DNA from: Chaetoderma sp. LZ-2023a
Lineage: Eukaryota > Mollusca > Caudofoveata > Chaetodermatida > Chaetodermatidae
DNA: 64,000 nucleotides
Direction: 5' to 3'
Assembly: GCA_034401795.1 (NCBI GenBank)
Contig: CM067360.1
Location: forward strand, 49,376,573 to 49,440,572
The notes below the pieces were generated by a model. It was not told the DNA's origin. It saw only the letters and a list, made by a program, of their open reading frames with translations, and ran no database searches. Positions 2,769 to 38,443 of the stretch are shown in pieces. The first letter of the stretch is position 1. Every line of letters begins with the position of its first letter. Both the position numbers and the translations under genes were made by a program.

Positions 2769-2872
2769 CAATATCAAAAGTATTAGGGAGGTAAGTATAC
2801 TCTTGATGTGAAATAAAGGAAATCAAGGATTTCTTTTTTCACGAGAGAGTTGATACTTACCTCCCTAGATAC
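2769..2872. repeat. Internal complementary region of DIRS copy A
   Basis: A head-to-head pair of short segments. The first half is complementary to the outer left end of the element family, the second half to the outer right end of this copy (compare 3095-3149). This layout is diagnostic of DIRS1-type elements and templates completion of the ends through a circular intermediate. Confidence 0.85.
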
Positions 2873-2934
2873 GGACCCGGCCTCTCCACCCCACAGAGGC
2901 TCGATCTTCAGGCTCTTGGTAGTTGCATGTGTTA

Positions 2935-3149
2935 GCCAATAAATTAGTCAGAGGAAGTAGTAGTCGGCGCATGCGCGATGGTGGGGCTGGCATCCGCCGG
3001 ACTACCTCTGACTACCTGCCCAGTAGGGGCACCTAACTGTTTTTAATCTGAGTGTTTTATTGAGTGAAAGCCAATATTTAGCAATATCAAAAGTATTAGG
3101 GAGGTAAGTATCAACTCTCTCGTGAAAAAAGAAATCCTTGATTTCGTTT
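2935..3149. repeat. Right inverted terminal repeat of DIRS copy A
   Basis: Runs from the AATAAATTAGTCAG motif through GGGGCACCTAAC to the terminal CGTTT at 3149. It is nearly identical to 35378-35578 and inverted relative to 29110-29303. It contains AGGTAAGTA, a consensus 5' splice site. Confidence 0.85.
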
Positions 3150-6819: not shown

Positions 6820-6906
6820 GTTAGATTTGCGAAACCTTTTCTCCCCGGCCAGACCATTCAAACAGATATGTGGAAGGAAGGTGACAGAGTACACTTTCAG
6901 TGTAAG
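6820..6906 (+). CDS. HSD17B4: HSD17B4 exon: end of the hot-dog (enoyl-CoA hydratase 2) domain
   Basis: This 87-bp, phase 0-0 exon follows TCCTAG and precedes GTAAGG. It encodes 29 residues beginning [12 protein letters not shown] and ending HFQCK. The family pattern RFAKP-x2-PGQT-x3-MWKEG-x2-HFQ-x-K belongs to the last strands of the second hot-dog fold of MFE-2. It is too short to stand out as an open frame and was found by its motif. It lies between a Penelope-like element and a DIRS element, and the next exon is 11.4 kb away because of the DIRS copy and satellite in the intron. No earlier exon was recognised in 1-6819. Confidence 0.92.
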
Positions 6907-18900: not shown

Positions 18901-21900
18901 GGTCCTCATATGAAATATGGGGTCCCATGTTTTTTTATTAAAATAAACACAACACATTGATCTAATTATAAAGCACTTTATTAAACATGTTGAAAACAAT
19001 GCCAGTCATTCCAGTGGTAAATTCTCAAAAATATGTATTCTGTGATCTACAATGGTGGCTAAAATTGATCTATTGAAAAGGCCCTTGTATATTTAACTAA
19101 TAACATTTGAACTGCATGTCAAGAAACAATAACTTAAAGCACTGTACTTGTTTGTTGTCTGATAAACCAACCAACCTACATTGACAACCTTGTATGATTA
19201 ACATTTCCAAAGACCACGACATTAGTAATTAGCAAAGACTACTGCATTAATTTTTCTATTAAACCCTAACTTGACTTTGGACAAATTGAAAAATTACGAG
19301 TATCTGGGGCGAGTTTGCTCAAGGACGACTTGACCTACTTCGATATAATGCGCGCGTATTTTTTATAATTTAACTGGAATGACCAAATATAGTGGAATAC
19401 ATAGTTTAAGATTAGACAAAACAATAATTTATCAAAAATAATCTGTATAAATCAGATTAAACTGCGTAATTAGTGAAAATGTATCAGCCAATAACCGAAT
19501 GTGTCTAATTCATAGGGAGTAACTATGTAACGCGATTGCTGATTGGTTGAAGCATAGATAACGCATTAGCGTGTATCCAATAAGGACGCTTGTATCGGGG
19601 AGCTTTGAGCTACACGCTGTTTGGAAAAAAAAAATCAATATTTTAACGCATGCCTACCTGTAAATCGATGATATCGTTGAACATCGCTGCTGGGATGAGC
19701 TTTTTAGTTGAGAAATTGGGAACACCTAACGATCGAGTATTGTTAAACATTATAAACACTAATCCATCAGTCAATCAATCAGCCGCTATTGCTAAATAAA
19801 AGACGGCTTATCGCGCATATTGATACCGTTATTCAAACAGCAGTACAAAGACAGTGCCGCTAATCCGTATATTCCTTCATCCATTTAGATATTTAGATAA
19901 GTAAATAGAAAAAGATATTTTGCCTGTAAGTCGTTGCTGCTTTAGGCAAGTAGGCATGCGCAAATTAATTTCAAAATATTCAGCAGATTAGTGATAACAA
20001 CGTTGTGATCTGTCCAATGTTCTGAGCTGTGAAAGGGTTAAGACGCCCAGTCATGTTTGTATACGCTTGATCAGTTGTATTGGATTCTCAAGCATGAGTT
20101 CCTCTAGAGGGAGATTCCGCTGTTATCCAATCAAATACTGACACATCACACTGACGTTTAGCACAACAGACAGAAACATGGCAGGTATTTTTGCAATTTG
20201 TAGGCCAAACAAGGCGACTAACATCGGGCTTGTAAACTCATTATTTATCAAAAATTAGATCAAATGGAATACTAAGGATGATTTGGGGATTGTGTTTACA
20301 ATTAAACGTGCTGGTTGAATCTGATTTATGGGCATGAACAACTTTGAGTTGTGCAAGAAAACATACAACAAATCATAGTCTTACACAACGCAGTAAGTTC
20401 GTTTTTATTGAACACAATACATATTAGGTATATTTTTTAAAGTAAAAACATTCACAAATAAATATACACACATGATAATATAATCGATAATTAAGCACAT
20501 GCAAAGTTACCAGTTTCCATTACACTTTTTCACTGCGTCCCTCGTGAGTCCTCGGGGACGCTGAGGGTTAATTTTTATGCATCCCTCTGCCATTTTCATG
20601 CGTATATACGCGCAAAAGGACGCATAAGGGCAACACTGGCAACGTGTGAGTGGAGCTTAGCTAGAGATGGATGACATGTATCTAAAGCTGGATTCCTCAA
20701 TTTTACTAAAATTTGGCTAATGTTTAGGTTAGTTGGCACCCAAACATCAAGATCTTGTAGGGGCTAGGGAAAGGAAACCTGGTACAGTTAATAGCATGAA
20801 TGTATTGATGTATTGATAACTTAGGTTTGATGAAATTTTGCTTTCCCGTTGTATGTCAATGTTCCCAAGCCCATATTCCTTCCCACTTTATGCCATATGG
20901 ATGCTTTTTGATGTTTTAGCGGACAAAATTAACCCGTTTTCGTAGGTCATCAAAACAGATGACAGAAAGGGATAATGGAGACTGGTACCCGACTCCAAAT
21001 TTTCTGCAATAGTAATTCAATAGGGAACCGGGTACCAATGAACTGTAGTCGACTACGATCAAGTTCGACTGGGCATAGCAACTGTGCATGATAGTAAACC
21101 AGCAAACTGACTATAGTTAGCGAGTCAAACTTGACCCTGGAATGCTGTTGTATAATTTTCTTTAATTAAGCTTGACAACCGAATCAAAAATTAATAATTA
21201 GTACACCGCCTGAAATTACTAAAGGAATTAAAAGGAATTATGTTCAGTGGTTATTGCCTAACACTGCAACTAAGTATATACTTGGTATTTCACGACAGAC
21301 TCGGGGGGGGGGGGTCTGCAGCGAAAGAAAGAAAATTATATAGCAATTCGACAGAGTAACTAGCTGGTTTTCTCAATGACAAAGGTGTTACCTCGCTATT
21401 CTTAGCTGGTTTACCATAGAGCTTTGTGTTTTGATTAGGACTTAGTGAACACATGCGTGAAGCGATCAAGAAAAAACACAATGGATACATGCGTGAATGG
21501 ATTATAACTGTATTCTTTTACTGCTGAATGATGAGTTTTAAAATCTTAGTCTGCTCAATTTTTTTTCAAATACATCGTAGAAAACCCGAGAAATTTTTTT
21601 TAAGTCGCAATTTTCAATTAAATCGCGAAATCGTGCAAGCCTATATAGCTGGTGTTCATTTTAAAACATATATTGAAGTAAGCTGTAGTGGTCTATGACA
21701 GTGACAACCTTCAGCAACATTGATTCCTAAATATACACCAGAAAGGCCTCTAATTTCTTATTATAAACATTGTGTAAGGCCAGTTTTCATCAAGCAAGTA
21801 ATTTGTTTAGTTAAATTCAACAAAATCTGGGGGAAAAGTCATATTTTAATTTCAAGCATTATCAAACAGGTTCAATTACCATCAATTGATTGAAAAGTAT

Positions 21901-24900
21901 GGCCAATCAGCATTCATGTAAATATGGCATCATTCTCTGACCAAAGTTACAAGATCTGTCGAAACATTGATTCGATAGAAGAGCTCTGATTTTGAATCTA
22001 ATTTGACTGCATGTCATTGCAAGGCTAAGGCATCAATAAATTTTAGTCCAGTTGTTTTCAAAGTCTATCTCTAGCATGTACTGAATGCCATGTATTGCCT
22101 CTATATTTAGATTGATCAAGTGCTGTTATATTCATGCATTATTTCACAAATAGGAGGAATCTGGACCCGCGCTTGCCAGTGATCGTGTGTTTAATGACCT
22201 GAGACAACAGTTGAGTTCTAATCCAGACCTGGTGAAGATGGTGAAAGCTATCTTTCAGTGGGACATTACAAAAGATGGCCAGCAAGCTGTTACATGGAGT
22301 GAGTAGCTGATATTCGTGTGGTACAAGGAAGCCAGTGTGCATTGGCTATCATGTATATTTACTGTTGTGGTATTGTTTAAGTTCTCTGAACTCATAAATT
22401 ATGGCATTAATATAAGGTATATCTGGGCGTAATTTGTTAATTTTTGTGCACTTTAACAAAAAAAACTTTAAAAGTGAGGTCAGCCGTGTTAGTCTGTTAA
22501 TAATAATAACAACAGGATTCTAGGTGGTACCTTTTAAGACAAACCTTTTTTAATAAGCTTACACACATAACTGTGCTTCATCATCTGCATCATCAGCTCA
22601 TCAAAATAAACTACGTCTTCAATGGTTTCGACTGGTCATGAAATCTTATAAAGAATTTCTTATGCCTGATCATTTGGATCGAAATCCGATTTCGATCCAA
22701 CTGATCAAGCATAAGAAATTCTTTAGACGATTTCACGACCAGTCGAAACCTATTCATATACCACGAGAAGTCTGCATTCAGCTATCCTGTATCCCGTACC
22801 TAGATGCTCTATACTGGCTGATGGCAGCAAGCACATCACTAATTCTATGCAGATCCAGCGAAACACTGGTGGATCTGATGAAAGACACTGGGTTAGGAGA
22901 AGATCAACACCCGAGAAAGAGAACCAGGCCTAATGAGAACGACATTGATGAGAACACAGTCTTCCACGAAAATCCTAAGAAGAGACCAACTATTCCAGCT
23001 GAGCTTCAGGGAAGCTATAAGCAATGGAGGAACTCCTCTTGCAAACTAGTCAAAATCCAACTACAAATGGATAAACTAGAACTCTCCATTGCTAGTGGAA
23101 AAGTAATACCCCTTTTACAAATAAACTGCCGGTATGTGCCACCATCTGATGATACCACCATCGAAAAGGAGTGGGAGAAACATATCAAGGAATCTAGTCT
23201 ACACTTGACTGGACAATTTCTAGATTTACTACGAACTCGTGCAACCACGCTCACTGACAGAGTCAAACGAGTGAAAGCAGGATTCAAAGCCGCTGCCGAA
23301 ACTAGTGACGTAGTACTTGAAGCAGAGAGAGCAGTCCGATCCACTATATTGAAAACAAGGGACAGGTCAACTAGCCCGCCAAAGCGCCGACGAACTGAAG
23401 GAGCAACCCAAACCAAACAGAGGACACAGAAGAGAAGGCCGGAGAAGTTGAACAAGCACGAGTTCTGCAACATATGGGACAAAGTGCAGAAGAACGACAA
23501 GAACTTTGATACTTTAAACAAAGTTCTAAATCTGCTGAAACAGTTTGAACGCTAACTGTCATGAACTACATTCAGACAGACAGCAATCACGACTGTCATT
23601 TTTTAAACTAGAAATAAAAATTATGTCAATAAAACATGTCAAAAAAACAAAAAAACCAAAAACCCTGTGAAAGAGAACTCTCTGAGATCTGCTTTGTTAA
23701 AAGACCTTTCTGAGAAACAACTCAGTCAGGATGTTGTACATGTACTATCATTAGGGTTGGGATTCAGTCCCACAGTAATCGAACCAAACATGGGTAGATT
23801 ACATTCTGACCGTAATAAATTATTCAGGAGGCTACGCCTCAAACTACATTTCGAACACCCTCCTTTCCTATGGGGCAAGGATGAAAGCAATGTATCAACG
23901 GTGGACACACCCATACCGCCACACCCACCAGTCTCCACATTCACAGAAAACCTAATCAGAAAATTGAAATCACGCAGCCAATGGACACCACCAGCTGGCA
24001 ATGACCACGTTTTAGACACCTTTATCAAAAAAGTAAAACATGATCTGAATAAAGTAAAACACAGGCGTAATTTCAGATGCAACATCTCCCAGGCTGACAG
24101 AAAGCTAACACAAATGCTAGCAAATGACAAATCCATTGTCATTAAGAAAGCCGATAAAGGACAAGCCACAGTCATACTAAACTCTTATGACTATAATGCT
24201 GAAGCCCTAAAACAACTCAGACACACGCTACTATGAACTCGTGACAGAAAATCTGACCATCAAACACGCTGAAATGGTAGAAACAGCCATCACTGGGCTG
24301 GTTCTGAAAGAGGAGAACACTCGTGACACCGCCTAAGAGTAGACAACCCACGCACACTGTGAGTCTATCTTTTACCAAAAATACACAAAAACACTACACC
24401 CACACCAGGCAGACCAATCATTAGCGGCAATGGCTGCCCTACTGAATACATCAGTAGCTTCATAGATGAACATCTCAAAGTTCATCTCCCGAACATTCCA
24501 TCATACGTCAGGGATACAACTGACTTCATCAATAAACTAGAAACTTTTGGTACGCTACTGCAACACGCTATTCTAGTCACCATACACAAACATCCCACAC
24601 AATGAGGGACTAAAAGCCGCCGCACAACATATCAGAGAATTAGGTATGCCTGGCGACCGTAGACCAAGATCACTCTTGGAGTTGCTATCTAATGTATTAA
24701 GATGTAATAATTTTGAATTTAATGACAAACAATACCTACAAATGGGAGGGACAGCTATGGGCACAAAAGTAGCACCAACATATGCTGTTATCTTCATGGC
24801 CCAACTGGAGAAAAAGCTACTGCTTCATTCTCCCCATAAACCGGCCCTCTACCTCCGATACATCGACGACATATTCATGATCTGGACATCTGGCCAACAA

Positions 24901-27900
24901 AAACTTGATGAATTCATCCACTATATGAATACTTCTCACCAAAGTCAGCTTTTTGGATACATATGTATACATTGATACTGATCGCTCACTCTGCTTTGAT
25001 TTATACTGTAAACCTACGGACACACATGGCTACCTACATTTCCAATCAGCACACCCACAGTCCACCAAAAACTCCAGCCCGTATGGACAATTCCTTAGAC
25101 TACGCAGAATCAGCAGCAAGGAACTAGATTTCCACAAACATGGCCATGAACTCATTGGTTACTATCAAAGGAGAAATTACCCTCCCAATCTTCTTCTAAA
25201 CAGCTATCAGAAAGCATGCGCACATTCAAGAGTTGATCTCCTAATACCCAAAGTTAAAAACACAGAGATAAACACACGTATCCTATGCATAATGGACTTT
25301 CACACTCAAATCCATAAAGCAAGCAAAATTATCAAAAAGAACTGGGAACTACTAGATAGTAGTCCCAGATGTAGAAGCACATTCCCAACTCCACCGATGT
25401 TTGGCTACAGAAAGAATCAAACTTTCAGAGACACACTTGTCACCGCCAAATTTGAGTTTCCCGCCAAATTAGGCCTTCAAGGAAAAACTTTCCAAAATCC
25501 AATCTGTCCATGCACAAGAAAAAATTGTTTCTTCTGCAAGAATATGGCCAGTATACGTGAATTCACTAGCACACACGGGTCTAAAATACAGATGTACGGT
25601 CAGAATATACTGCGACACACGCAATGTCATATACCTACTCATATGCACACAATGTCACAAACAGTATGTTCCACGTATGAGTGAAAGAACATCTAAGGGA
25701 TATTAAAAAACACAAAGATACCCAATCATACTGGACAAAATGTGTCCTACAAAATTATACAAATTCTCCCTCAGACCCTGAGGATACTGATAGAACTCAT
25801 ATCAGGAAAGAACAGGAGAAGTACTGGATACAACAACTGCACACGTTAGACCCTATAGGGATTAATCATGCAGATTGGTGATTCCACAATATGAGTTGTT
25901 CTTTAAGTCTTCAATGGTGCTACCATTAAATTATGTTGTTTTTAACAAACTAGAAGTTTAAATGCCAGTTTAGATAAGTTAGCCATCACCATATTATGTG
26001 AACTTATTGTGTGCGCTAGATAAAAGAGTTTGTGTAAAAGTATAATATCACCGCTAGTATCTTCATGATCTTAGTCATTCAACATCTAGATTTTTCATGT
26101 GTATTGTGTTTTCATAAACTATTTTGCAGCAATGGATTTGAAGAATGGCGCCGGTGCTATCCATCGCGGTGAACCTAAACAAGGCAAAGCTGAATGTACT
26201 ATGATCCTCTCTGATGAGGACCTGGTTGCCATGTCAACTGGAGAGCTCAATCCACAGCAGGTAGATGGTCGTTGTTTTGTATTGATGACTGATAGTGATG
26301 TTTGTGTCCTCTCTAAATATGCGAATGGGGAACTACCATCTTGTGCCTGGATTGGGCTATTGACCTGTTAACACTCAAGCGGGCGTAAATGTCTTTTGCA
26401 GTTGTCTTCACAAATGTACATTTGGAGACCAAGAGAAGTTGATTTTTGATAATTTTTCACTGGAATGATGGGCTCGATGCCAGAGCCGGTCATTCCAGTG
26501 AGACGTATCCAAAAATAATCTCGAGGTCTGCAAATAGACATTTTCTATGAGAAAATTAACAAAATTTTGATGAAATTTGAGGGTTAAATGGTTAAAGACA
26601 GATTCTTACATTCTTAATGAACTATTTTACAACGGCAATTGTGCTTCCCACTCTTAGATAGTGGGGTCAAAGGTCATGATGACCCAATATTAACCTGAGG
26701 TTTCACGCATGGTTCTAATGACCGCTATTGATTAAGGGATCAAAGATCACGTTCATATTGAGACAATTAACAAAATTTTGTTTTGTTTCTGGATGATGGC
26801 TCAAGTTCTACATAAGGGATCTTGGCCAAACTGGAGTAGATCTGAGGTGGAAGAACACTATTGATTTTTAGGTCAGAGTTCAAAATCATTAACTAATTAA
26901 CATATTTTCATTTCAAGATCACTAGAGTTCTACTAATCAGATTTTCACCAAACTTTGATGGGATGTTGATGTTGTGTTAAATGATCTCCATTGAATTTGG
27001 CCTCAAGTCAGGTCATAGCAACCCAATTAATCCTTTCATGCCTTAATTTCTTTACGAAATGTTCTGTGTGGACTAAATTAATTTTCCAAATTCTCTGTAA
27101 ATTTGACATTTTTCTTACTATCATAAAAAGATTTTGTTGAAATAAATTAAATTATATTTATGCTCACTTCAGACTGTAGCGTCCCAGGCCGCCCCATACT
27201 TTACTAATGCTATTTCTGTCACTGCTATGTGATTATAAATTAATAAATAAATAATCACTGCATCTGGCGCTTGGGCTAGCTGCCAATCTTCTTAAAATAA
27301 CTTCAACGCATATACTGGTACTGTATTTCACCGCACAAATATGCCTGCATAATACAGACGGCTAGCAGGGAAAGGGAGAGCACTCTTCCAGGAAGAATTT
27401 GGTCGTGAGTGCCTCTGGTAATGTATGGGGCTGTTACAGTCTGGAGTGAGCAGTATGGCCTGGGACATTACAGGAAAGTAAAGGGTTAATGAAATTGTAT
27501 TGCAGATGGGGGAGCATAGATCTAAATTCTGGATTGTCAGTCTTATTATGCAGTACTTTGGTTTATACATATTGATGTTTCCATAATTATACTGTCCATT
27601 GTTTTACAGGCATTCATGAGGGGACAGCTGAAGATTAAAGGTAATATTATGTTGAGTCAGAAATTAGGACAATTGTTCAAAGCACAAGTAAGTGGCAAGA
27701 AATCACCTGCAGCACCCCAGCAAGCACCTGTCGTTTCTAAGCCAGCCCATGCTGCCTCTAAGCCAGCACCTGAAGCTCCATCTTCCTCATCATCTTCCAC
27801 AGACCAGGTAAGTAAGCACATTGCTGTTATCAGCTTGGATAATACATGTACCTTGATTTTATGTATCTCAAGACCACTTTTCCTAATCCATACCGTGAAT

Positions 27901-30900
27901 CAATGCATTTTTGTGTGAGTTATGTTGAAGTAAATCGCTGAAACTGTAAATGCACATGATTGATTCAAATAATAGTATTATGTAGGTGTAGGAGATTATA
28001 TATATGCCTTGTTAAACTCTTGTGTCCAAATTTGCTGTTTTTCCGCTTATCATTCCCTGTCATTCGTCCCTGCCTGTCATTGGTCCCTGTTGCTGGACCA
28101 TGCACTGTCATTGAGGCATACCCCGTCATTATGGCATTCTCAGTCAATGATCTATACACATCATTGGGCCATACCACATCATTGGCGCAATCTCTGTCAT
28201 TGAGGCATTCTTCATCAAGACTACCACAGAAACCAGTTTTCTCCGCCTTGACCAATAATGTGCTAGATACATGTATATAAATTAAATTATTATTGTTACA
28301 TTGTTGAATGATTCTGTAATGGAGTATGTTTTAAGTAAACAACCAATAGAGAAATCCATTTCTAGCTTTGCCCGCCCATTTCTAGCTAAGCTCCGCCCAT
28401 GCTTTGCCCATGTTAGGATCGATCGAACCCTCAATTCCCAGAATCCCAATATTACGGTAAGCTGTTGAATATTTTGAAACTAATTTGACTGGATATTGTT
28501 GACAGCACTCAGTCAAATTACATTCAAAATATTCAACAACGTTTATTAAATTACTAAGCCATGCAATTCGTACACTTGATGGACTATTAAGCATTCCTGA
28601 CGAACTTAAATACGCCATTGATTACATATTATGATTGTGATGTCAGCCCACATGTGACATAACTGATTATGATGTCATATACTTGAGTGACAGATCAGAT
28701 TCATCCATTCTAACATGTATTTAAGGTGTTTACCCTTTCATGGTTAAGATCGGCCTTTGCAGTGGTCTTGAGTAATATTCATTTGCAGGCCCAGCTTAAT
28801 GTTATCAGACACCGAGTCAGTCCTGTGTTGTGTTGAACTTTCAAAAGTAATATTTTGCTATACCAAAATAGACATTTACAAAACAAGAATTTAAGTTTTC
28901 TTAATAAATCTTGACCGTTAATGGGTTAAAAAGTCTGTCATATTAATTAAATGTTTTCAAAAATACATTTAACTATCTCACATCCGTCACAGGTAGTGTT
29001 TGTAAAATGTAGCAGTTATCGCCCTTGCTACATTTAACTAAGTGTCAGTAGTTAGTTAGACATGTACTTACTTTTCACACAATTTGTCTCATGTCTTTGA
29101 CTTCTATATTTTCACTTCAAGAGTATACTTACCTCCCTAATACTCTTTGATATTGCTAAATATCGGCTTTCACTCAATAAAACACTCAGATTAAAAAAGT
29201 TAGGTGCCCCTACTGGGCAGGGAGTCAGATGACAGTCAGGCGGATGCCAGCCCCACCACCGCGCATGCGCCGACTAGTACTTTCTCTTTGCTAATTTATT
29301 GGCGGAGGGTCTACACATGCTTTGTTGCTTTAAGCTTTTCTTAGCTGTTTAAGACTTAAATTCATACTCTATTATATATCCTGTGTGAGATGGCAGATCG
29401 TCTATATTCGCCGGAGGAGGGCCCAGGACCTAGCCGTCAGGTGACTTCTAGTATATTTTAGCGAGTTTATCCCATTGTAATGTGTTTCCGGGACTCGCGT
29501 TTATCATGATAAGCGCCTAAAATAACTAGTTTATTTCAAAATGGCGCTATGAAATACTAATCTCTCTTTGTGTTTATGTCCACAGGTATCTACCTAGGAA
29601 TGTTAGAACATCACATCTTCAGAGAGTTTGTTTTTCTCTCCACCAAGGTTCCATTTCCTACTAACATTGTTAGGTTATCTAACCAAAATTCCTTTCCCAG
29701 TGAGTTAGAGGCCTCGGATGAAGGTCTTCTCACTTTGCCCTCTTGATCCACTTCCTTCCCCCTAAGGTGGAGAGAGTTAAGAGATCATAAGGTTGGTGGA
29801 GCGTCCGGTTCATCAGATCAGTTGGTTTGTCTATGCTAAAGACTCAGGTACTCTAGTTATGATATGAGGCATTTCAATTATATTTGACAATATTTATAAA
29901 ATCTTACTGCCATTTATCATTGTTTATCTGATGTTTGCATAGTCTGTATAAACTATCCTGTCTAGTTAGGATGTTCTGGATATGATTGCAATTCATCCTT
30001 ACACCTGGAGGTTTTGTTTCGGATCGATTTAACTTCTTATTTTTGAAGTTATGATGTCATAATCAGCCTTGCGCCTTAATATCAGTTATAAGTTTTGTCC
30101 AGCGCTGATTTATTATCATTATTAGCTTGGGTCTTATGGCCCCTTCCTCCTTGTTTATTTCGTGTTGAGTTCTAATTCAATATCTGTAATACTCATTCTC
30201 TTCATCCTCTGCTGTGTTTCAGAGGCCTGGTTGTCCTTCATGTGGAAGATTTATCCTTGACAAGTTCTTCCCCCAATTATGCTCCCAGTGCAGCCTGTGT
30301 GGGCCATTGCTAAAATGTGAGATCTGTAAAAAGGGGTGGGGGGGAGGAGCTAATGTCTGAATTTCTCTCATTGCAGACCAGGGAGAAGGCTCCAGAGGAG
30401 GAGAGGAAGAGTAAGAAAGAGGCTTCTGGTAAGAAGGGTAAGAGGAAGGCCTCGTCCGCTATGGATATGGAGGCCTTCCGTATTGAGATGATGGGAGAGA
30501 TGAAGAGGACAATTAAAGATTTGGTCCCAGAGTTGCTTCGTGGCATGCTTCCTGGTCCAAATCTTTCGTTGTCCTCTTCATCTGCTCCGGAGCAGATAAT
30601 CCCCGCCTCTGAATCGGTACTATTTAGGGACCTATCAGTTTTCGACCATGATTCAGAGGTGACCCTAATAGAGGGTGAAATCCATGGTAAAAACACTGGC
30701 AGCAGGCTTGCCGCGCCGGTTGTTCATGGTCAGGTGTCGCTGGAACCTGCCTGCCTATCAGGCCAGGATTATCCGCACCCTGCAGGTACCAGTTCCTCCT
30801 ATGGTACTTCTCCTGGCCAGTCCGGGTTAGCATTCTTTGCTAACCTGGAGTCTAATTTTTCTGGCCAGGAAGAAGAGGATTATCTGCTGGGTTCTCCTGT

Positions 30901-33900
30901 TGCCGTGGCCATGGACATTGACATACGTGCACCCCTCGCGGGGACCACAGGCATCATTGTCCACGGTACTACTCGCGCAGGAGTAGCGTTCACGGCAAAT
31001 AAGCTAGCCCGGGCTGGATCTGATGGCCAGTTTTACCGCATACCTCGGCTTGCCGATGGTGTAGCAGGTGCTGGCCAGGGCCGTAGTGTGGCAAAATTTT
31101 CCCCACGCAATGCCACAGCGCCTGCTACTGGTCAAGCCAGTTCCTCCAGCCACATACACACCTGTGATTGCTCAGGAAGATGACGAAGGCCCTCGACTTG
31201 TAGAGCATTCGCAGGTGGCCACGGTCTGATGCTTGTCAGTGGCTAATCAACGTCAGACCAGATCTTGCCGTGGTTCAGTCGGCCAGTCAACGGGACCAGC
31301 GCCCGTGGCTGACAGGTAAACCAACTGTTACCGCTATGCCATCTTTGCCGTTAGCTGATCATATTGTTGATATGTTCACTGCAGCGGAGACGTCCATTAG
31401 TGCACATGGACGTTTAGGGAAGGCCCCCCGCGAAGTGGCAAAGCGGTGCCGTATTACAGCTGATCAATATCAGCTATACAGTGTAGTACCGAAGCCAAGC
31501 ACGGATGACTGTGCTGCGCTGGGTGAAGATACGCGGCTCCCCCTGTGTATCATCCCCTGCAGGCTCGAGGTGGCGGTGGCCAGGTCAGAGGCCAGCCACC
31601 AGCGCAGAGTTGGCCACGGCCACGTGTGCTTCGGCCAGCAGCGAGGGGGGGCGCAGGCAGCCGCCCGCGCACCATGGTGCGGGCCATGGTGCGCGAGGAT
31701 CTGGTCGTGGTAATCGTACCTGACAAGGTGATTACCACAGTAAGAGCTACCCCAGTGCATCTGCACCAGGAGACGGTGCCACTCTTGCGCTTCTTATGTC
31801 CACCTCTCTCCCTAGGTGGACCAGTGGGAGGCCGATTGGCCAACCACATGCAAGAGTGGGAACGGTTGACTCAGGACTGTTTAGTCTTGCGATGGCTTTC
31901 AGTCGGGTATCATTCCGACTGGATAACAGGCCCACCATCACGACTGTTTCTGGTGCCGGTCTGGACTCAAATTCCAAGAGATCCAGATCAGCGGTTGTGT
32001 ATAGAGCAGGAAATAAATTCCCTCATACACAAGGAAGCAATTCAACCGGCGCAAAATGGCCCTGGCTTCTATTCAACTGTGTTCTTGGTAACGAAAAGCA
32101 CTGGAGGGTGGAGACCAATTCTCAACCTCAAGCCATTGAACAAGTTCATAGACACACCCAGTTTCAAGATGGAAACTGTGAGATCGGTGTTGGCAGGGTT
32201 GGAGAAGGGAATGTGGACAGCTTCAATAGATTTGAAGGATGCTTATTTCCACATTCCAATAGCGAGGAGTTTCCGTCGCTTCCTGAGATTTGCATTCCAG
32301 GGCAGACAGTGGGAATTCAGGGTGTTACCCTTCGGAATTTCTACAGCTCCTCGGGTCTTCACCAGGGTGATTCTTGCGATAACAGCATACCTCCGCAGGA
32401 GAAGCATAGCAGTCCACACGTACATAGACGACTGGCTGTTAAAAGCACACAACCAGGAAAGTTTATCAGCAAATCTGGAGATAGTTTTGAAAACTCTCAC
32501 AGATTTAGGGTGGATAATAAATTTTCAAAAATCAGAGCTGACTCCATCCCAGAAGTTTGTTTACCTGGGAATGTTCTTCGATCTGGAGATAGGATATGTT
32601 TATCCTACTCAGGAGAGGGTACAGATACTCATCTCAGTAATACAGTCAGAGTGCAACAGTCGTCATGTCCTGGCACGGGTTTATCTGAGAATGCTGGGAT
32701 TGATGGTTTCTCTGGAACCAGTCATTCCTCAGGCGGCCTTACGCAGGCGGCCGATACAGTTATTTCTCATGACACAATGGACCCAGAGTACAGGTTCACT
32801 GGACTCAAGCGTGTCAGTGTTGGAGCCTCTAATTCATCACCTTCAATGGTGGTTGAAGAGAGAGAATCTCCTGGCGGGGGTAATGTTAACCCCTCCTCAC
32901 CCTCAGTTAATGATGTATACAGATGCATCGATGGAGGGGTGGGGAGCTTGCCTGGAAGAATCCACAATATCAGGGCTTTGGAATCTGGAACAGTCAAAGG
33001 AACATATCAATTTACTGGAATTACGAGCAGTAGTCCTGGGCCTGGAACATTTCTTACAGACAGTTCAGGGCAAGAGTGTTCTAATTCGATCAGACAACTC
33101 AACAGTAGTGACTTACATAAACCGCCAGGGCGGAACGAAGTCGCCCAGTCTCTGTATGATGACTTGGAAACTGCTTTGTTGGTGCCTGGATCACAGGATT
33201 GCCTTGAAGGCAGTTCATATTCCGGGAAGGTTAAATCTGTTAGCAGACTCATTGAGCCGAAGGATGAGTGTTTTACCTACGGAATGGCAACTAAATCAAT
33301 GTGTGGCGGATCGTCTGTTCGACCACTGGGGGAAACCCAACATAGATTTATTCGCAATGAAGAAGAATGCGAAGATGACGACGTACGTCTCTCCGATTCC
33401 AGATCCAAGCGCTTTCGCAACAGATGCGTTAGCTATCAGCTGCGTGGGAATGTATGCATACGCATTCCCTCCAGCAATCCTGATTCCAAAAATTCTTCAG
33501 AAAATCAGATGGGAGGAGTGCCAAGTGCTTCTGATCGCCCCAAATTGGCCAAGCCGATCATGGTATACGGATCTGCTGGACCTTCTAGTCTGCAATCCGG
33601 TTCCTCTGCCTCTGATGGACAATATTATCTTCCAGGGCAAGAACCTTCACAACAATCCGTCAATGTTCCGATTGACTGCGTGGATGTTGTCAAGGAATCT
33701 AGAATTAAGGAGGGCTTTTCTGAGCAAGCAGCCATGTTCATGACAAAAGCCAGGAGGGGGCCAACCTCCAGAGCAAATAATTTAAAAATCAATAGATTTG
33801 TAGAATGGTACTCAAAAAGATGTATTAATCCAATAGATTCATCTATTCAGGTAGTAGCCGATTTCCTCTGTCACCTGTATAATGCCTATCACCTCAAGCC

Positions 33901-36900
33901 TAACTCTATTGCTGGCTATAAGTCAGCTTTAATGACAGTTATCCCTTGCTTGGCTAATAGGGGAAGTGATGAAGTAAATACATTAAATACTTTAATCAAA
34001 GGCATGGCCAATCTAAGACCAAGGAATCCCCCAGTGATTCCGTCTTGGAGTTTATCACTAGTGCTTCAGGTGCTAGCTGATAGGCCGTTTGAACCACTAA
34101 GCTCCATTTCTATGAAAATGTTGACGCTTAAAACTGTATTTTTAATTGCTGCGGCCTCGGCTAGGCGTAGGAGTGAGATTCATGCCTTGTCAGCCGAGGC
34201 AGACCGTTTTGTGGTTACAGGGGAAGGCCCTTAGGCTTCTACCCAGGATAAATTTCATGGCGAAAAACCAGTCTGAAATATCCGGGTCAACCGATAATTT
34301 TACCAGCTTTGACTAGGTTTGATCCTAATTCAAAACTATGGTGTCCAGTCCGAGCATTAATCCGGTACAAACAACGTACTCAAGATTGGCGGACGGACCC
34401 AACAGCGTTATGGTCGTCATATATTGAGCCCCATGGCAGGGCGTCAAAGGACACCATCTCTAGGTGGATTGTAGAGTGTATTCAGTTTTGCCATAAATCC
34501 ACCACAGGTAAACAAGTTGACATGGCCAAGGCTCACAGTGTCCGAGGTGTAGTGGCTTCCACTGCCCTATTTAATGGGGTACCTGTGGATGACATTATGT
34601 CAGTAGCTCAATGGCACTGTGAGTCAAGTTTTACCGACCATTATCTCCGTGACACCTCAAATCCTCTCGCCTTATCGATTTTGAAAAGCTAATCTAGCTG
34701 TACATATTTTGATGAGGTATCCTCATTTTTTATATATTTCACATTTAATCAATGGAAACATCTACTTTATGGGCTGCATCAGTCTTCACCAATGGGGAGA
34801 TGATGACAGCACCAATCTTCCACAAGGTTAGTCTTGTGTGTGTTGTCCATGGTTTTTTGTAATGTCACGTGACCCTTCGTTATTAATATGGTGATGGTAC
34901 ATGTTTTATGGGGTTCATTATTGAGAGTATACGAAAATGAAGCCTTTTCGTTTAATGTCCTATAGTACATGGCACTTGTACGTTGAGAGCGTATGGGACA
35001 TTGAGGTCATTCAGTCTTCCTCCCAGGAGGGGGGGAAGCGCATATGACTTTTGGTCATCTCTCAGCCATCGGTTTGTGTTAGCCGATGTTTCTCTTCTAT
35101 TCCTGATTGTGTTTCCACACAATTTCAGAAGTTTAAGTGCTTTAATCGCAGAAAAGCGCATAGGGAAGAGCTGGTCTTCCTCCCGCCGAATTCACTGACA
35201 AATTCTGGCAATATCAAAGAGTATTAGGGAGGTAAGTATACTCTTGAAGTGAAATAAACGGAATCTCGGATTTCTTTTTTCACGAGCGAGTTGATACTTA
35301 CCTCCCTAATACGGACCCGGCCTCTCCGCCCCACTGAGGCTCGGTCTTCAGGCTCTTATTATGTTGCATGTGTGTCAGCCAATAAATTAGTCAGAGGAAG
35401 TACTAGTCGGCGCATGCGCGGTGGTGGGGCTGGCATCCGCCTGACTGTCAGGTAGGGTCACCTAACTTTTTTAATCTGAGTGTTTTATTGAGTGAAAGCC
35501 GATATTTAGCAATATCAAAGAGTATTAGGGAGGTAAGTATCAACTCTCTCATGAAAAAAGAAATCCGAGATTTCGTTTAGCTTATTGCAATGTTTCAATA
35601 CTATCATTAGATCATTACTTTGGCAATGTCTGTTTTTTCCCATGTATAGCCACCACCAGAGCTAGCCAGTGATAAAGTGTTCACGGACCTAACAGAACGT
35701 CTAGAGGCAAACCCAGATTTGGTGACGCAAGTGAAGGCAGTATTTCAATGGGACATTACTAAGGATGGCAAACCAGCTGTAACTTGGAGTAAGTCAGAAC
35801 TAACTCGCTAGCCTGGGGAGACTAGAGATTGGCCAACTCTATTTGTGCATTAACCATTTAACACGCAGAGACAACAAATTTCTGCTGAATGTTTTGACAG
35901 TAATTTGACTGGGAGTTGCTGCAGTTAAATTATCTAAAATATTTAACAGGTTTCCTTTATAGTTGTCTTGAAATTGCGACACTGGAATTTCAAGAGTTAA
36001 GGAGTTACCTAGCCCTGACTGGGCTACTACGCGATTGTATTGTAAACATTACATGGATAACATAAACTAGCCAATAAGTCATATTCCACAGTTTTTAGGA
36101 ATGTAGTATAATTTTGAAAATAGTGTCACTTGCTGCTTTTCAAAATTGTATCAGTTATTATCCAAATGTGAGGTGAATAACATAAATTCATCCTGATGTA
36201 GATCTGTTATAGTTTTATTCAATACATTTTGATGTAATTGTGCGATATGCTTCATGATGTGGCTTAGCTAATTAACCTGTCCAGCGGAGCAGATATGTGT
36301 TATGTTTCACCTGTCCAATGGGAAAAATTACTTGCCATGGCCAGGTCAAGCAATGTTACCAACTTTGGCACACCGTTTGGTAATGTGAATACGGAGGCCA
36401 AGTTCGAATTGCGTCACTTTACGTCCAGAGTAATTTGCACTTGAAAGTATGGAATTCAAAAAAAAATTTCCATTTCTAGACAATAACTTGTTTGGCAGCA
36501 CCTATTTGAACCAACTTCGGCATATTGCTTAGTAATATGAATAAGAGCCAAGTTCAAATTCCGTCAATTTATGTCATATTTACCCGAAGTTGTCCTCCCT
36601 TGAAAAAATATAAACGTTAGTTTGACAGTTTCCAGCCAGTAACTTGTGTTATACTAAACCGATTCAAACCAAATTCGGAATATAGCTTAATACTACCGAG
36701 GCTGATGTGATGCTTGTGTTCCATTACTTTTCAACAATATTTGCCAGTTATCATCCTTGAAAAATACAAACTTTGTAATTTGTCTGTTTCTGGGCAATAA
36801 CTCATGCTAGACTAAATGGATTTGAACCAAATTCAGAATTTAGATTAATAATATTAAGACGGAGATCAAGTTCCTATTTTGTTTCCATCAATAATTGCCT

Positions 36901-38340
36901 GAGCTATCACCCTTGAAAAATACAAACTTCATTAATTTAACATCCCCATACACCAAATACTGTAATGTAAGCACATATACCAGTTATAGGGAGCCGACCA
37001 GTGAATTGCCCAGCTTCCTTACATGTCCTTTCAAGCGGGGATCAAAGGGATTTGTATTGCTTGCAATGCCTTGTTATAACCTGAAATGGGTTAATTACAA
37101 AACAATATCATGCCGTTATACATCACGCTCAATCTATCATAGTTAAGATTAAACATTTGACCTCCTAAAGGCCTAATCTGAAAGAAACAGTTCCAATGTA
37201 ATAAACAGCCTGTTGAATATTTTGAAATAATTTGACTGGGATCTGGTGCTGCCTATAGCATCAATAAGTTCCTGTCAAATGAGATTTAGCATATTCACAA
37301 ACTTACCTAGGTATAATAATAACCTTGAAATGGGAGTTTCATGGATCACATAGTTAATCAACCCTGTGCACACATCATCTTATAAAATTTACCACTGGAA
37401 TAACTGGTTCGGTTACATTTCTCAAGACCACTGGAGAAGGCGTTTTGGCTGGTAAGGGTGTTAAAGAGTTAATCTAATTGTGTTTTTGTTTCAAGCTATG
37501 GATTTGAAGAATGGCGCCGGTGCTATTCATCGCGGTGAACCTAAACAAGGCAAAGCTGAATGTACTATGATCCTCTCTGATGACGACCTGGTTTCCTTGG
37601 CAAGTGGACAGCTCAATCCACAACAGGTAGAGACTTAACTCTTTCACACCTACGGCACAGATGTAACAAATTTCTTTCATAATAAAACCTGTCCCTAAAT
37701 TCAAGACTTCCATCTACTATGCTCAGCCACTTTGGCATGATTGGACCATGTTAGCTTATGTGTGTATGCTCATCTAAAAAATAAGCCAATCAATATGATA
37801 TACTGTTTACAAGATATTGTGAATGGATGGACAGGCGGATGGACAGTGATTACTATAGTCCAGATAACCAAGCTTTTTACAATGGATTTTTCCATTTTAT
37901 CCATCAATCATATGTCATAATCAACTATGGGACTTGTAGGATGATGTCATATTCAATGACGTCATGAATGACATAGATAAGTTTGTCACGAATGCTTAAT
38001 TGATGATGGACTAAGCGTTGTTGTATGTTGTTGTAATAATTGTATGTCTGCTATTTAAAAAACATGCTATTGAATATTTTGAAACTAATTTGACTGGGCG
38101 CTGTTGCTGCTATAGGCAACACTATGATCTATGATCACCAAGGTTACGTCTTGGTTATGCCTTTGGGTAAAGGTGTCTGGTGTGTCAACTGTGCTGTAGC
38201 TTTCATATCACTAAAATTCTAGGTAATGTTAATTCCTCTTTGTTTTGCAGGCCTTCATGAAAGGACAGCTGAAGATCAAGGGTAACATTATGCTGAGTCA
38301 GAAGCTTGCACAACTCTTCAAAGAGCAATCAAAACTCTAG
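6820..38340 (+). CDS. HSD17B4: HSD17B4, 3' part of gene (8 visible exons, tandem SCP2 domains)
   Basis: Peroxisomal multifunctional enzyme type 2 handles the hydratase and dehydrogenase steps of peroxisomal beta-oxidation of branched and very-long-chain acyl-CoAs. In the vertebrate protein the order is SDR dehydrogenase, hot-dog hydratase and one SCP2 domain. Visible exons are 6820-6906, 18343-18456, 22154-22298, 26130-26260, 27610-27807, 35650-35788, 37496-37626 and 38251-38340. All have AG/GT borders and compatible phases, and they read as one frame of about 344 codons to a stop. From memory the residues align with human HSD17B4 through RFAKP, PGQT, MWKEG, the A-Y-x-DL strand, WDITKDG and GNIMLSQKL. 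Unlike the human protein, two complete SCP2 domains follow each other. The protein ends QSKL, a PTS1 signal. The SDR part and the first hot-dog exons must lie left of the window. HSDL2 and SCPx also carry SCP2 domains but match less well, and neither has the hot-dog exon. Confidence 0.93.
6907..7164. other. Intron start, nothing recognised
   Basis: Sequence between the HSD17B4 hot-dog exon and the satellite. No repeat family, RNA gene or exon was recognised. Confidence 0.4.
7165..7506. repeat. 22/23-bp satellite array, left block
   Basis: Tandem units of two related kinds: ATGATGTCATAATAGTAAG plus TAAT (23 bp) and ATGATGTCATATACTAACC plus AAT (22 bp), often alternating to give a 45-bp higher-order unit. 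Each has the near-palindrome TGATGTCA. The array is interrupted at 7423-7458 by a copy of the left end of the adjacent DIRS element and continues beyond that element at 14010. Confidence 0.9.
7507..14016 (+). mobile_element. DIRS-type retrotransposon, copy C, inside a satellite array
   Basis: About 6.5 kb with inverted terminal repeats (left 7507-7700, right 13840-14016) and an internal complementary region at 13673-13773. Parts: a gag-like region (about 7770-10860, with a Lys-rich start after a poly-G run near 8850), RT (from about 10930, [18 protein letters not shown]), RNase H and methyltransferase-like region (about 11285-12120) and YR (about 12050-13080, with [12 protein letters not shown] and the DHYLRD end). 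It belongs to the same family as copies A and B but to a distinctly diverged subfamily. Its two ITRs still resemble each other strongly, so the copy is moderately young. It is clearly broken, with roughly ten or more interruptions. Satellite of the same kind flanks both ends. Confidence 0.9.
13673..13773. repeat. Internal complementary region of DIRS copy C
   Basis: GTTAGGGAGGTAAGTATG and its inverted partner CATACTTACCTCCCTAAC lie about 45 bp apart. The first half is complementary to the element's left end, with the CATCATGAGAACATACTTAC motif also seen at 7510. Confidence 0.8.
14010..14815. repeat. 22/23-bp satellite array, right block
   Basis: About 35 units of the same 23-bp (TAATAGTAAGTAATATGATG type) and 22-bp (ATACTAACCAATATGATG type) repeats as at 7165-7506. 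The 23-bp form is commoner here. The block begins immediately at the right end of DIRS copy C. Confidence 0.9.
14816..15314. other. Intron with a CCA-type trinucleotide-rich stretch
   Basis: No exon seen. At about 15171-15245 there is an imperfect ACC/CCA/AAC trinucleotide microsatellite. The rest is unremarkable AT-rich intron of HSD17B4. Confidence 0.5.
15410..16435. repeat. Seven-copy degenerate tandem repeat, period about 153 bp
   Basis: Inside D1. The landmark TACAGAATTTTGATTGGTCA recurs in degenerate form at about 15491, 15643, 15796, 15951, 16106, 16259 and 16412, a spacing of 152-155 bp. Each unit also has GATTTCAACCAAATTTGGCT and GGCCATCTTGGATTTT. Because 153 is divisible by 3, long chance open frames run through the array on both strands. 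Confidence 0.8.
16436..18006 (+). repeat. Second dispersed repeat D2 nested in D1
   Basis: Again starts with the hairpin form CTAACCTGGCCAGAATGGTC followed by AAGTGAGCTTATGCCATGG and ends GGGCCTCTTGTT at 17995-18006. The D1 phrase GATTGGTCAA ... GGCCATCTTGGATTTTC is interrupted at 16435 and resumes at 18007, so D2 is the younger insertion. Confidence 0.7.
18343..18456 (+). CDS. HSD17B4: HSD17B4 exon: last hot-dog strand and linker to SCP2
   Basis: A 114-bp phase 0-0 exon, with acceptor ATCCATAG and donor GTAAGA. The peptide begins [17 protein letters not shown], which aligns with the human segment VQETGDIVISNAYVDL, and continues into an Ala/Glu/Ser-rich linker that ends DNVE. The linker is acidic and probably flexible, separating the hydratase from the first SCP2 domain. 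Confidence 0.92.
18540..20690 (+). repeat. P2 palindromic MITE copy, split by a hAT-like element
   Basis: The left part (18540-18807) has the P2 landmarks TTAATAAGCATACTGTTGAA, AATTTGACTGGGTGCTG, the inverted arm TTTTTTCAAAATATTCAACA and GGGATCGATCGATC. The right part resumes at 20639 with GTGGAGCTTAGCTAGAGATG. The hAT-like element 18808-20638 separates them. Confidence 0.7.
18808..20638. mobile_element. Non-autonomous hAT-like element H1 with 8-bp target duplication
   Basis: An 1831-bp element with terminal inverted repeats CAGTGTTGCCC ... GGGCAACACTG. The flanks are GCAATGTG (18800-18807) and GCAACGTG (20639-20646), an 8-bp duplication with one mismatch. Near the left end, GGGGGTCCCA-type boxes recur four or five times (18833-18930). 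No transposase frame is seen. A fragment of P1 palindromic repeat lies at about 18995-19075. A shorter inverted relative is at 51208-52269. Confidence 0.85.
20691..21139. other. Intronic sequence, nothing recognised
   Basis: No exon, RNA gene or clear repeat family identified between the split P2 copy and the next hAT-like fragment. Confidence 0.35.
21140..21646 (-). mobile_element. Fragment of hAT-like element (family of 42178-43240)
   Basis: Reverse-oriented half copy. Its outer end AATCGTGCAAGCCTA is at 21632-21646, and the inner part (CTGCAGCGAAAGAAAGAAAA, TAGCTGGTTTTCTCAATGAC) matches 42470-42560 and 63180-63245 inverted. It has a G11 run at 21303-21313 and no second terminus. Confidence 0.7.
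21647..22153. other. Intron before SCP2 exon, no gene seen
   Basis: AT-rich intron. A weak P2-like fragment is possible around 21995-22065 (AATTTGACTGCATGTCATTG). Nothing else recognised. Confidence 0.35.
22154..22298 (+). CDS. HSD17B4: HSD17B4 exon: SCP2 domain 1, first third
   Basis: A 145-bp exon, phase 0 to 1, between an AG acceptor and GTGAGT. It encodes 48 residues with the core [14 protein letters not shown], then [13 protein letters not shown] and AVTW. This is the N-terminal helix and first strands of an SCP2 fold, which binds fatty acyl-CoA or sterol. Its counterpart in the second module is the exon at 35650-35788, with the same phases and about two thirds nucleotide identity. Confidence 0.95.
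22624..22750. repeat. 127-bp near-perfect hairpin in the 5' part of Penelope-like copy 2
   Basis: Two 63-bp arms separated by one base (22687). The arms match at 58 of 63 positions by eye. They begin GGTTTCGACTGGTC and meet at GGATCGAAATC/GATTTCGATCC. The candidate start of the upstream frame (ATG at 22638) lies inside the left arm. Confidence 0.9.
22638..23555 (+). CDS. Upstream frame (ORF1-like) of Penelope-like copy 2
   Basis: 305 codons with no stop, ending TAA-free until 23555. Composition is charged. A predicted helical segment (about residues 125-235, rich in K, E, L) is followed by a basic stretch with SPPKRRR (a likely nuclear signal), [11 protein letters not shown] and a C-terminal NLLKQFER. 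No catalytic motif is recognised. It precedes the RT frame by about 110 bp. It could be a nucleic-acid-binding accessory protein of the element. The true start is unsure because the first 35 residues come from the hairpin. Confidence 0.6.
   Translation: MKSYKEFLMPDHLDRNPISIQLIKHKKFFRRFHDQSKPIHIPREVCIQLSCIPYLDALYWLMAASTSLILCRSSETLVDLMKDTGLGEDQHPRKRTRPNENDIDENTVFHENPKKRPTIPAELQGSYKQWRNSSCKLVKIQLQMDKLELSIASGKVIPLLQINCRYVPPSDDTTIEKEWEKHIKESSLHLTGQFLDLLRTRATTLTDRVKRVKAGFKAAAETSDVVLEAERAVRSTILKTRDRSTSPPKRRRTEGATQTKQRTQKRRPEKLNKHEFCNIWDKVQKNDKNFDTLNKVLNLLKQFER
26130..26260 (+). CDS. HSD17B4: HSD17B4 exon: SCP2 domain 1, middle third
   Basis: A 131-bp exon, phase 1 to 0, acceptor TTTTGCAG and donor GTAGAT. 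With the base carried over it encodes 44 residues running from [10 protein letters not shown] to GELNPQQ and includes TMILSDEDL, the usual SCP2 core. It differs from the exon at 37496-37626 at only about 9 of 131 positions, and the first 88 bases differ at two. The flanking exon pairs are far more diverged. Confidence 0.96.
26368..26587. mobile_element. P1 palindromic TTAA-flanked MITE, intronic copy
   Basis: TTAACACTCAAGCG at the left and GAGGGTTAA at the right enclose a diverged palindrome with GACCAAGAGAAG, CACTGGAATGATGGGCTCG and CGGTCATTCCAGTG. It starts about 110 bp after the SCP2 middle exon of HSD17B4. Confidence 0.7.
26588..27609. other. HSD17B4 intron, no gene seen
   Basis: Contains GATTTTCACCAAACTTTG and similar phrases typical of old dispersed repeats. 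No exon or RNA gene recognised. Confidence 0.4.
27610..27807 (+). CDS. HSD17B4: HSD17B4 exon: SCP2 domain 1 end plus P/A/S-rich linker
   Basis: A 198-bp, phase 0-0 exon (acceptor TTTTACAG, donor GTAAGT). The first 26 codons, [17 protein letters not shown] onward to FKAQ, finish the SCP2 fold. The following 40 codons form a low-complexity linker of Lys, Pro, Ala and Ser that ends in a Ser run and TDQ. A second perfect donor, CAA followed by GTAAGT at 27688, lies exactly where the SCP2 homology ends and is also phase 0. Its use would delete the linker without a frameshift. Confidence 0.95.
28060..28215. repeat. Short degenerate tandem repeat (GTCATTG-GGC type)
   Basis: About nine spaced copies of a 14-20 bp unit with the core TCATTGG or TCATTGAGGCAT. 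Seen in GTCATTGAGGCATACCCC, CATCATTGGGCCATACC and GTCATTGAGGCATTC. Confidence 0.55.
28345..28700 (-). mobile_element. P2 palindromic MITE, reverse copy
   Basis: Left end CCATTTCTAGCTTTGCCCGC, centre hairpin TGTTGAATATTTTGAAACTA / CAAAATATTCAACA at 28462-28542, then GTGATGTCAGCCCACATGTG and GAGTGACAGATCAGATTC. Layout is inverted relative to 54983-55377. Confidence 0.75.
28701..29109. other. Intron with a diverged P1-like fragment
   Basis: GTTTACCCTTTCATGGTTAA near 28727 and CCGTTAATGGGTTAA near 28915 look like remnants of a TTAA-flanked P1 element. No exon seen. Confidence 0.4.
29110..29303. repeat. Left inverted terminal repeat of DIRS copy B
   Basis: TTTCACTTCAAGAGTATACT at the end, then TTACCTCCCTAATACTC, GTTAGGTGCCCCTAC and GCGCATGCGCCGACTAGTAC, up to TAATTTATTGG. 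Matches 35378-35578 inverted except for the outermost 15-30 bases, which differ between the two ends as expected for DIRS1-type elements. Confidence 0.88.
35209..35312. repeat. Internal complementary region of DIRS copy B
   Basis: The first half, up to CTTGAAGTGAAA, is the reverse complement of the left end. The second half, from AATCTCGGATTTC, is the reverse complement of the right end. The join corresponds to the circle junction and fixes both element ends at 29110 and 35578 to within a base or two. Confidence 0.9.
35378..35578. repeat. Right inverted terminal repeat of DIRS copy B
   Basis: Ends GATTTCGTTT at 35578. Contains GGGAGGTAAGTATC at 35528-35541, a consensus 5' splice site in the sense orientation of HSD17B4, 117 bp before the exon at 35650. 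Confidence 0.88.
35650..35788 (+). CDS. HSD17B4: HSD17B4 exon: SCP2 domain 2, first third
   Basis: A 139-bp exon, phase 0 to 1, acceptor CATGTATAG and donor GTAAGT. It encodes [32 protein letters not shown] and AVTW. Same architecture as 22154-22298, two codons shorter at the start. The right end of a DIRS retrotransposon lies only 71 bp upstream, so the 3' splice site and branch point sit in a very short stretch of original intron. Confidence 0.95.
35855..36010. repeat. P2-type palindromic fragment
   Basis: TTAACCATTTAACACGC at the left, then CTGAATGTTTTGACAGTAAT, TTGACTGGGAG and the inverted arm TCTAAAATATTTAACAGG, with GAATTTCAAGAGTTAAGG at the right. A diverged member of the TTAA-ended variant of P2 also seen at 56998-57212. 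Confidence 0.6.
36340..36940. repeat. Four-copy degenerate tandem repeat, period about 145 bp
   Basis: Each unit has AACCAAATTCGGAATATAGC-like, CTTGAAAAATACAAACTT-like and AATAACTTG landmarks; units start near 36355, 36490, 36645 and 36795. Repeat of unknown class in the intron between the first and middle exons of SCP2 domain 2. Confidence 0.65.
36941..37495. repeat. Intron with partial P2 and P1 copies
   Basis: P2 centre arm TGTTGAATATTTTGAAATAA at about 37211-37230. Right half of a P1 element at 37385-37473, TTACCACTGGAATAACTGG to GGTGTTAAAGAGTTAA, which stops 22 bp before the SCP2 exon acceptor. Confidence 0.6.
37496..37626 (+). CDS. HSD17B4: HSD17B4 exon: SCP2 domain 2, middle third
   Basis: A 131-bp exon, phase 1 to 0, acceptor TTTCAAG and donor GTAGAG. 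It encodes 44 residues from [10 protein letters not shown] to GQLNPQQ. The 5' two thirds is almost base-identical to 26130-26260, including silent sites. The intron sequence on either side does not obviously match between the two copies. Confidence 0.96.
37880..38130 (+). mobile_element. P2 palindromic MITE, 5' part
   Basis: TGGATTTTTCCATTTTATCC (terminal repeat form), CATATGTCATAATCAACTAT, GTCACGAATGCTTAATTGAT, TGATGGACTAAGCGTTGTTG and ATTGAATATTTTGAAACTAA are the consecutive P2 landmarks. The copy stops just after the central arm. It lies in the last HSD17B4 intron. Confidence 0.7.
38251..38340 (+). CDS. HSD17B4: HSD17B4 last exon: SCP2 domain 2 end and PTS1 signal
   Basis: Acceptor TGTTTTGCAG. 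Thirty codons counting the TAG stop at 38338-38340. The residues run from [17 protein letters not shown] to FKEQSKL. The final SKL is the canonical type 1 peroxisomal targeting signal, so the protein is expected in the peroxisome matrix. A polyadenylation hexamer follows about 100 bp downstream. Confidence 0.96.
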   Translation, partial: AFMKGQLKIKGNIMLSQKLAQLFKEQSKL

Positions 38341-38437: not shown

Positions 38438-38443
38438 AATAAA
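38438..38443 (+). terminator. HSD17B4 polyadenylation signal
   Basis: AATAAA lies 98 bp after the stop codon, with T/G-rich sequence following within about 60 bp. It is the first canonical hexamer downstream. Confidence 0.7.

Follow-up and report, generated by a model that had tools for sequence, protein, structure and literature searches.

The 64,000-nucleotide stretch of the Chaetoderma sp. LZ-2023a genome analysed here (the window, C2:49376573-49440572) contains the end of a gene that is very probably an HSD17B4 gene whose three-exon SCP2 module has been doubled head to tail. Its product would be one polypeptide with the order dehydrogenase, hydratase 2, SCP2-A, flexible linker, SCP2-B and SKL. 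The recognised part of this gene (the window gene, or gene 2) extends from C2 49,290,723 to 49,414,912, and a sister gene (gene 1) is recognised upstream, from C2 49,087,273 to 49,233,036. The gene structure predicts a single enzyme with two SCP2 units, as had been proposed in a first-pass annotation made from the sequence of the window.

Architecture of the SCP2 tail

Positions below refer to the window and features are on the plus strand unless stated otherwise. SCP2 module A is encoded by exons at 22154-22298 (145 bp, phase 0-1, with AG and GT splice signals), 26130-26260 (131 bp, phase 1-0) and 27610-27807 (198 bp, phase 0-0), the last of which contains the end of the SCP2 fold and a linker. 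Module B follows at 35650-35788 (139 bp, phase 0-1), 37496-37626 (131 bp, phase 1-0) and 38251-38340 (90 bp), where the reading frame closes with the C-terminal SKL and the stop codon TAG. An AATAAA polyadenylation hexamer was read from the sequence at 38438-38443, approximately 100 bp 3' of the stop. The intron leading from module A to module B (27808-35649) consists mostly of a DIRS-like retroelement (about 29110-35579). The borders and sizes of all six exons are those given by the first-pass annotation, with AG acceptors, GT donors and an in-frame join, and the phases it assigned to both modules (0-1, 1-0, 0-0) follow from the exon lengths.

When the six exons (22154-38340) are spliced in frame, they encode 277 residues without an internal stop, ending in EQSKL, with a Pro/Ala/Ser linker between SCP2 modules A and B and SKL-stop after module B. 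We infer that both modules would be co-translated in one chain. For domain searches of the individual modules, the tail was split at 27807/35650. Module A matches positions 1-101 of the 101-position Pfam SCP2 profile (cut-off 21.3 bits) with 95.1 bits, and module B matches positions 3-101 with 97.9 bits. Both modules thus pass the cut-off, in agreement with the earlier reading of two full SCP2 folds ahead of the SKL. The closest solved structures to the tail are the SCP2 domain of human HSD17B4 and its variants (8af3, 6z1x, 6z1w, 1ikt and 8af2), with E values of 3.3e-29 to 4.3e-29. In an NCBIfam search all matches to the tail fell below the NCBIfam cut-offs, and an Rfam scan of the window returned no matches.

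Linker, splicing and the peroxisomal signal

The last 42 residues encoded by exon 3 of module A are rich in Pro, Ala, Lys and Ser and take the place of the peroxisomal signal. SKL is found only on module B, and both genes end in it. Module A is unlikely to act as an alternative end of the protein, since in both genes it has neither a stop nor a peroxisomal signal.

The outer junctions of the modules are all of phase 0. A transcript that skips module A (joining 18456 to 35650) and a hybrid of the form A1-A2-B3 would therefore both remain in frame, and skipped or hybrid SCP2 isoforms are possible. Taken further, this would mean that the modules are used alternatively: splicing would leave out A or produce A1-A2-B3, giving isoforms with a single SCP2 domain, and would only rarely yield the tandem form. 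We consider this improbable. The phase 0 junctions are what such a scheme needs, but in both genes module A ends in a linker rather than in a stop or signal, the frame of the A-B linker has been retained, and the short tails added by reading through the A3 intron carry no C-terminal SKL-like signal in either gene. The simplest prediction is a single chain with the two SCP2 units in series.

The length of the linker may itself vary. A possible cryptic donor, CAA/GTAAGT (the slash marks the cut), was read from the sequence within exon A3 at 27688-27693 in the window gene only; it arises by a single base difference, the sister gene reading CAAGGAAGT at this place. If this donor were used, the exon would stop at 27687 with a length of 78 bp that preserves the frame, and 40 residues of the linker would be lost.

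Near-identity of the two exon 2 copies

The two copies of exon 2 share a 96-bp tract at exon positions 3-98, corresponding to 26132-26227 in module A and 37498-37593 in module B. Of 330 core sites, 48 differ between the modules yet agree between the two genes, and none of these lies inside the tract. A run of this length was obtained in 0 of 20,000 shuffles, in a test that treats all sites alike. Inside the tract the modules differ at 1/96 sites in gene 1 and 2/96 in gene 2; outside it they differ at 54/234 and 58/234 sites, respectively. Between the genes, the tract has diverged to an ordinary degree (4/192 sites, against 13/468 at other sites; p 0.79). The Fisher values for the tract are post hoc, its borders having been defined in the same data as the longest run without module-fixed differences.

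This pattern fits conversion between the two exon 2 copies better than constraint, because constraint should slow both comparisons and only the between-module comparison is slow. A single conversion event could have preceded the gene duplication, or each gene could have undergone conversion after it; the sites are too few to separate these possibilities. The competing explanation is an unusual constraint at the nucleotide level, for example by splicing signals or RNA structure. It would account for a tract that lies inside an exon with no visible sharing in the neighbouring introns, but it does not sit well with a sequence that diverges at the ordinary rate between genes and hardly at all between modules. 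A frozen nucleotide constraint on exon 2 was rejected on these grounds, and we give constraint about as little credence as alternative use of the modules. Gene conversion remains our preferred reading of the tract.

A sister gene in tandem

In the whole genome the 277-residue tail has 17 matches with E values of 10 or less, and 12 of these are the six SCP2 exons at each of two places on C2. The exons have identical lengths in the two genes, with no frame damage and no stop before the end, and the splice signals are intact throughout (AG acceptors 12/12, GT donors 10/10). Because six exons recur with identical lengths in a second gene of the genome, the SCP2 doubling is more than a chance arrangement. 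The proposal that a whole three-exon module had been duplicated is upheld: HSD17B4 contains two copies of the symmetric SCP2 module here, and so does the neighbouring paralogue. The remaining five matches to the tail are on C11 (two), C16 (one) and C2615 (two), at 30-57% identity.

The comparison of the two genes would lend no independent support to the doubling if the sister were an uncollapsed haplotype or an assembly artefact. Duplicated placement is possible in this assembly, as haemocyanin clusters on C8 and C17 have repeatedly equal scores. For the HSD17B4 pair we nevertheless regard this explanation as very improbable. Over 241 hydratase codons, the two genes show 25 nonsynonymous differences and a dS of 0.21. 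The six exons, together with the adjoining intron or 3' sequence, align locally at 84-91% identity. DIRS-like elements occupy different points of the equivalent A-to-B intron, and the two genes stand in tandem on one contig, their recognised ends approximately 58 kb apart. A haplotype duplicate was rejected on the divergence and the retroelement positions, and we treat the sister as a true second gene.

Gaps between gene 1 and gene 2 are absent from the six exons and present in 11/12 of the adjoining 150-bp flanks. The flank figures are rough, as they come from a forced end-to-end alignment of fixed 150-bp pieces of low identity (43-95%), one of which is 3' untranslated sequence; the local alignments are a better guide to flank identity.

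Age of the duplications and selection on the modules

Outside the exon 2 tract, dS between the modules is 1.26 in gene 1 and 1.42 in gene 2. Between the genes, dS is 0.05 for module A, 0.10 for module B, 0.21 for the hydratase and 0.12 for the dehydrogenase. As the between-module values greatly exceed the between-gene values, the module was doubled first, long ago, and the gene later. By these substitution estimates the SCP2 doubling is older than the gene duplication, and the between-module dS of 1.26 and 1.42 indicates that the two SCP2 modules have long been retained.

Outside the tract, the identity between modules A and B of one gene is 76-79%, and that between either module and the human SCP2 domain is 47-50%. 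Because the identity between A and B exceeds that to human, the doubling of the module appears to be later than the divergence from vertebrates, unless concerted evolution in the past masks an earlier date.

Over the pooled SCP2 cores, 10 of 140 synonymous sites and 7 of 520 nonsynonymous sites differ between gene 1 and gene 2 (Fisher p 0.0007), from which we conclude that the pooled SCP2 codons are under purifying selection since the gene duplication. Purifying selection is also significant for module B alone (p 0.003). For module A alone it is not significant (3 and 3 changes, p 0.105). No purifying selection was seen in the 42 codons of the A-B linker (0 synonymous and 4 nonsynonymous changes) or in the 38 codons of the hydratase-to-SCP2 exon (0 synonymous and 2 nonsynonymous changes).

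Assignment to HSD17B4

Two exons upstream of module A connect the SCP2 tail to a hydratase. The first (6820-6906, phase 0-0, 29 residues) encodes the final segment of the hydratase 2 (MaoC) core, as judged by tblastn to human residues 561-591 and by Pfam MaoC. The second (18343-18456, phase 0-0, 38 residues) completes the hydratase domain and continues into the linker that leads to SCP2-A; the hydratase C-terminus of human and fly MFE-2 aligns with the beginning of this exon. Both exons end at GT donors. Human HSD17B4, searched against the whole genome, has 51 matches with E values of up to 1, of which 29 are on the plus strand of C2 between 49.087 and 49.415 Mb. They form two stretches, and within each the matches are collinear from dehydrogenase to SCP2.

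Domain searches were carried out with concatenated homologous codon blocks, leaving out human residues 1-33, 74-93 and 251-349. In one chain of the window gene, Pfam recognises MFE-2_hydrat-2_N (128.9 bits), MaoC (104.0 bits) and SCP2 twice; the dehydrogenase blocks (190 codons) match adh_short with 83 bits. For the hydratase of this gene, the E value is 4.7e-95 against human MFE-2 hydratase (1s9c) and 4.3e-73 against fly MFE-2 (3oml). The features of HSD17B4 are thus present: a short-chain dehydrogenase, a double hot-dog hydratase 2, a C-terminal SCP2 and a terminal SKL, which is a predicted PTS1. The suggestion that the first SCP2 module might belong to another gene is contradicted by the hydratase and dehydrogenase exons upstream on the same strand and by the paralogue of the same architecture.

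Human HSD17B4 has exactly one SCP2 domain, whereas both genes here have a pair of SCP2 modules. By this predicted domain content the window gene is a variant, not a standard, member of HSD17B4. A single SCP2 domain is not required of the family, because the solved fly chain has none. That the gene is an HSDL2 or SCPx relative can be dismissed with near certainty: HSDL2, too, has a short-chain dehydrogenase joined to SCP2 (according to a part of PMC9863881), but it would lack the hydratase 2 (MFE-2_hydrat-2_N and MaoC) that sits here between the two on the same strand, and SCPx would have a thiolase ahead of SCP2 where the domain upstream of SCP2-A is hydratase 2.

The two genes differ in a conserved hydratase sequence. 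The motif reads GDWNPLH in human and GDKNPLH in fly. Gene 1 has GDYNPLH, but the window gene has GDYYALH, at a site outside the window (C2:49370010-49370150). The hydratase 2 motif is GD-x-NP-LH; the window gene has retained its Asp and His, and its Asn and Pro are changed. The MaoC score is 117.6 bits for gene 1 versus 104.0 bits for the window gene. These differences are suggestive only; the two HSD17B4 genes may be diverging in the hydratase. A fuller history, which we consider unlikely though somewhat less so than the alternatives weighed above, would be that a mollusc lineage long kept a double-SCP2 MFE-2, exon 2 was re-homogenised by gene conversion within the gene, the whole gene was then duplicated, and the window copy is now starting to lose hydratase function. 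If this were true, the window copy, with both SCP2 domains kept, would be on its way from an enzyme to a lipid carrier that has two tethered sites and a dehydrogenase.

Repeats in the window and other loci in the assembly

We take the sequences at about 1-3150, 7500-14000 and 29110-35579 to be DIRS-like pieces, with reverse transcriptase and recombinase-like ORFs, and the ORFs at about 3200-5500 and 22640-25880 presumably resemble Penelope-like reverse transcriptases; the latter region is inside the A1-A2 intron. By eye, TAATATGATGTCATAATAGTAAG-like unit repeats flank a DIRS-like element at about 7140-7540 and 14010-14810. Just 3' of the gene, the minus strand contains a 258-residue ORF (39060-39836), presumably similar to a retroelement's RNase H end.

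Contig C2615 is of bacterial origin. Among 77 relatives found for its dehydrogenase-SCP2 ORF, the best is a Desulfobacteraceae record with 89% identity. At C2615:30990-35841 this contig carries ORFs for hydratase, dehydrogenase and SCP2 that have no introns, and the reading frame of the hydratase overlaps that of the dehydrogenase-SCP2 protein. Intact ORFs that lack introns and look bacterial are also present at C18:2.5-3.5 Mb and C19:145371; for one C18 protein, no relative was found in a scan of a prokaryote genome collection. The haemocyanin beta-sandwich PF14830, a family of mollusc type, has at least 44 matches in the genome, which supports a molluscan source. The haemocyanin clusters with repeatedly equal scores are at C8:96985628-97015408 and C17:62634297-62663657, and represent either a recent segmental duplication or a duplicated placement in the assembly.

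Comparison with known systems

In the proposed architecture, the C-terminal SKL of module B would bring the whole chain to the peroxisome. The two SCP2 units would then constitute two tethered lipid or acyl-CoA binding sites beside the catalytic domains, and such a tethered pair could raise the local substrate capacity or widen the cargo range. The precise function of the SCP2 part of MFE-2 is called unknown in a passage of PMC3538638. A natural double SCP2, long kept and present in two genes, offers a comparison for its role, be it substrate feeding, sterol transport or import support only.

The genes described here share with SCPx and HSDL2 the C-terminal SCP2 domain. SCPx and HSDL2 are not known to have a hydratase 2 domain upstream of it. 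Drosophila MFE-2 (CG3415, PDB 3oml, 613 residues) has a hydratase of the same family as the window gene; in the solved chain the hydratase match extends to residue 601 of 613, leaving approximately 12 residues and no room for SCP2. The nematode system of DHS-28, MAOC-1 and DAF-22 provides the same peroxisomal beta-oxidation activities in split form: in C. elegans the catalytic domains of MFE-2 are separate proteins, as stated in a part of PMC3837297, unlike the arrangement here.

In the open PMC literature, as represented by titles and the starts of abstracts, we found no description of an HSD17B4 or MFE-2 with a tandem or duplicated SCP2. Two oyster MFE-2 entries are named in a portion of PMC7525975 that gives no domain information, and double-SCP2 examples may well exist in other molluscs.

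The closest counterpart is human HSD17B4 (MFE-2, D-bifunctional protein), which has the same order of dehydrogenase, hydratase 2 and SCP2 and the same C-terminal peroxisomal signal. The human SCP2 domain is 49-50% identical to either module. The human enzyme has one SCP2 domain, according to PMC3538638, whereas two are predicted here, connected by a Pro/Ala/Ser linker and present in two tandem genes. The number of SCP2 copies on MFE-2 thus varies among animals: the solved fly chain has none, the human enzyme one and the genes described here two. On the predicted gene structure, what appears to be new is a second SCP2 domain on the known enzyme HSD17B4.
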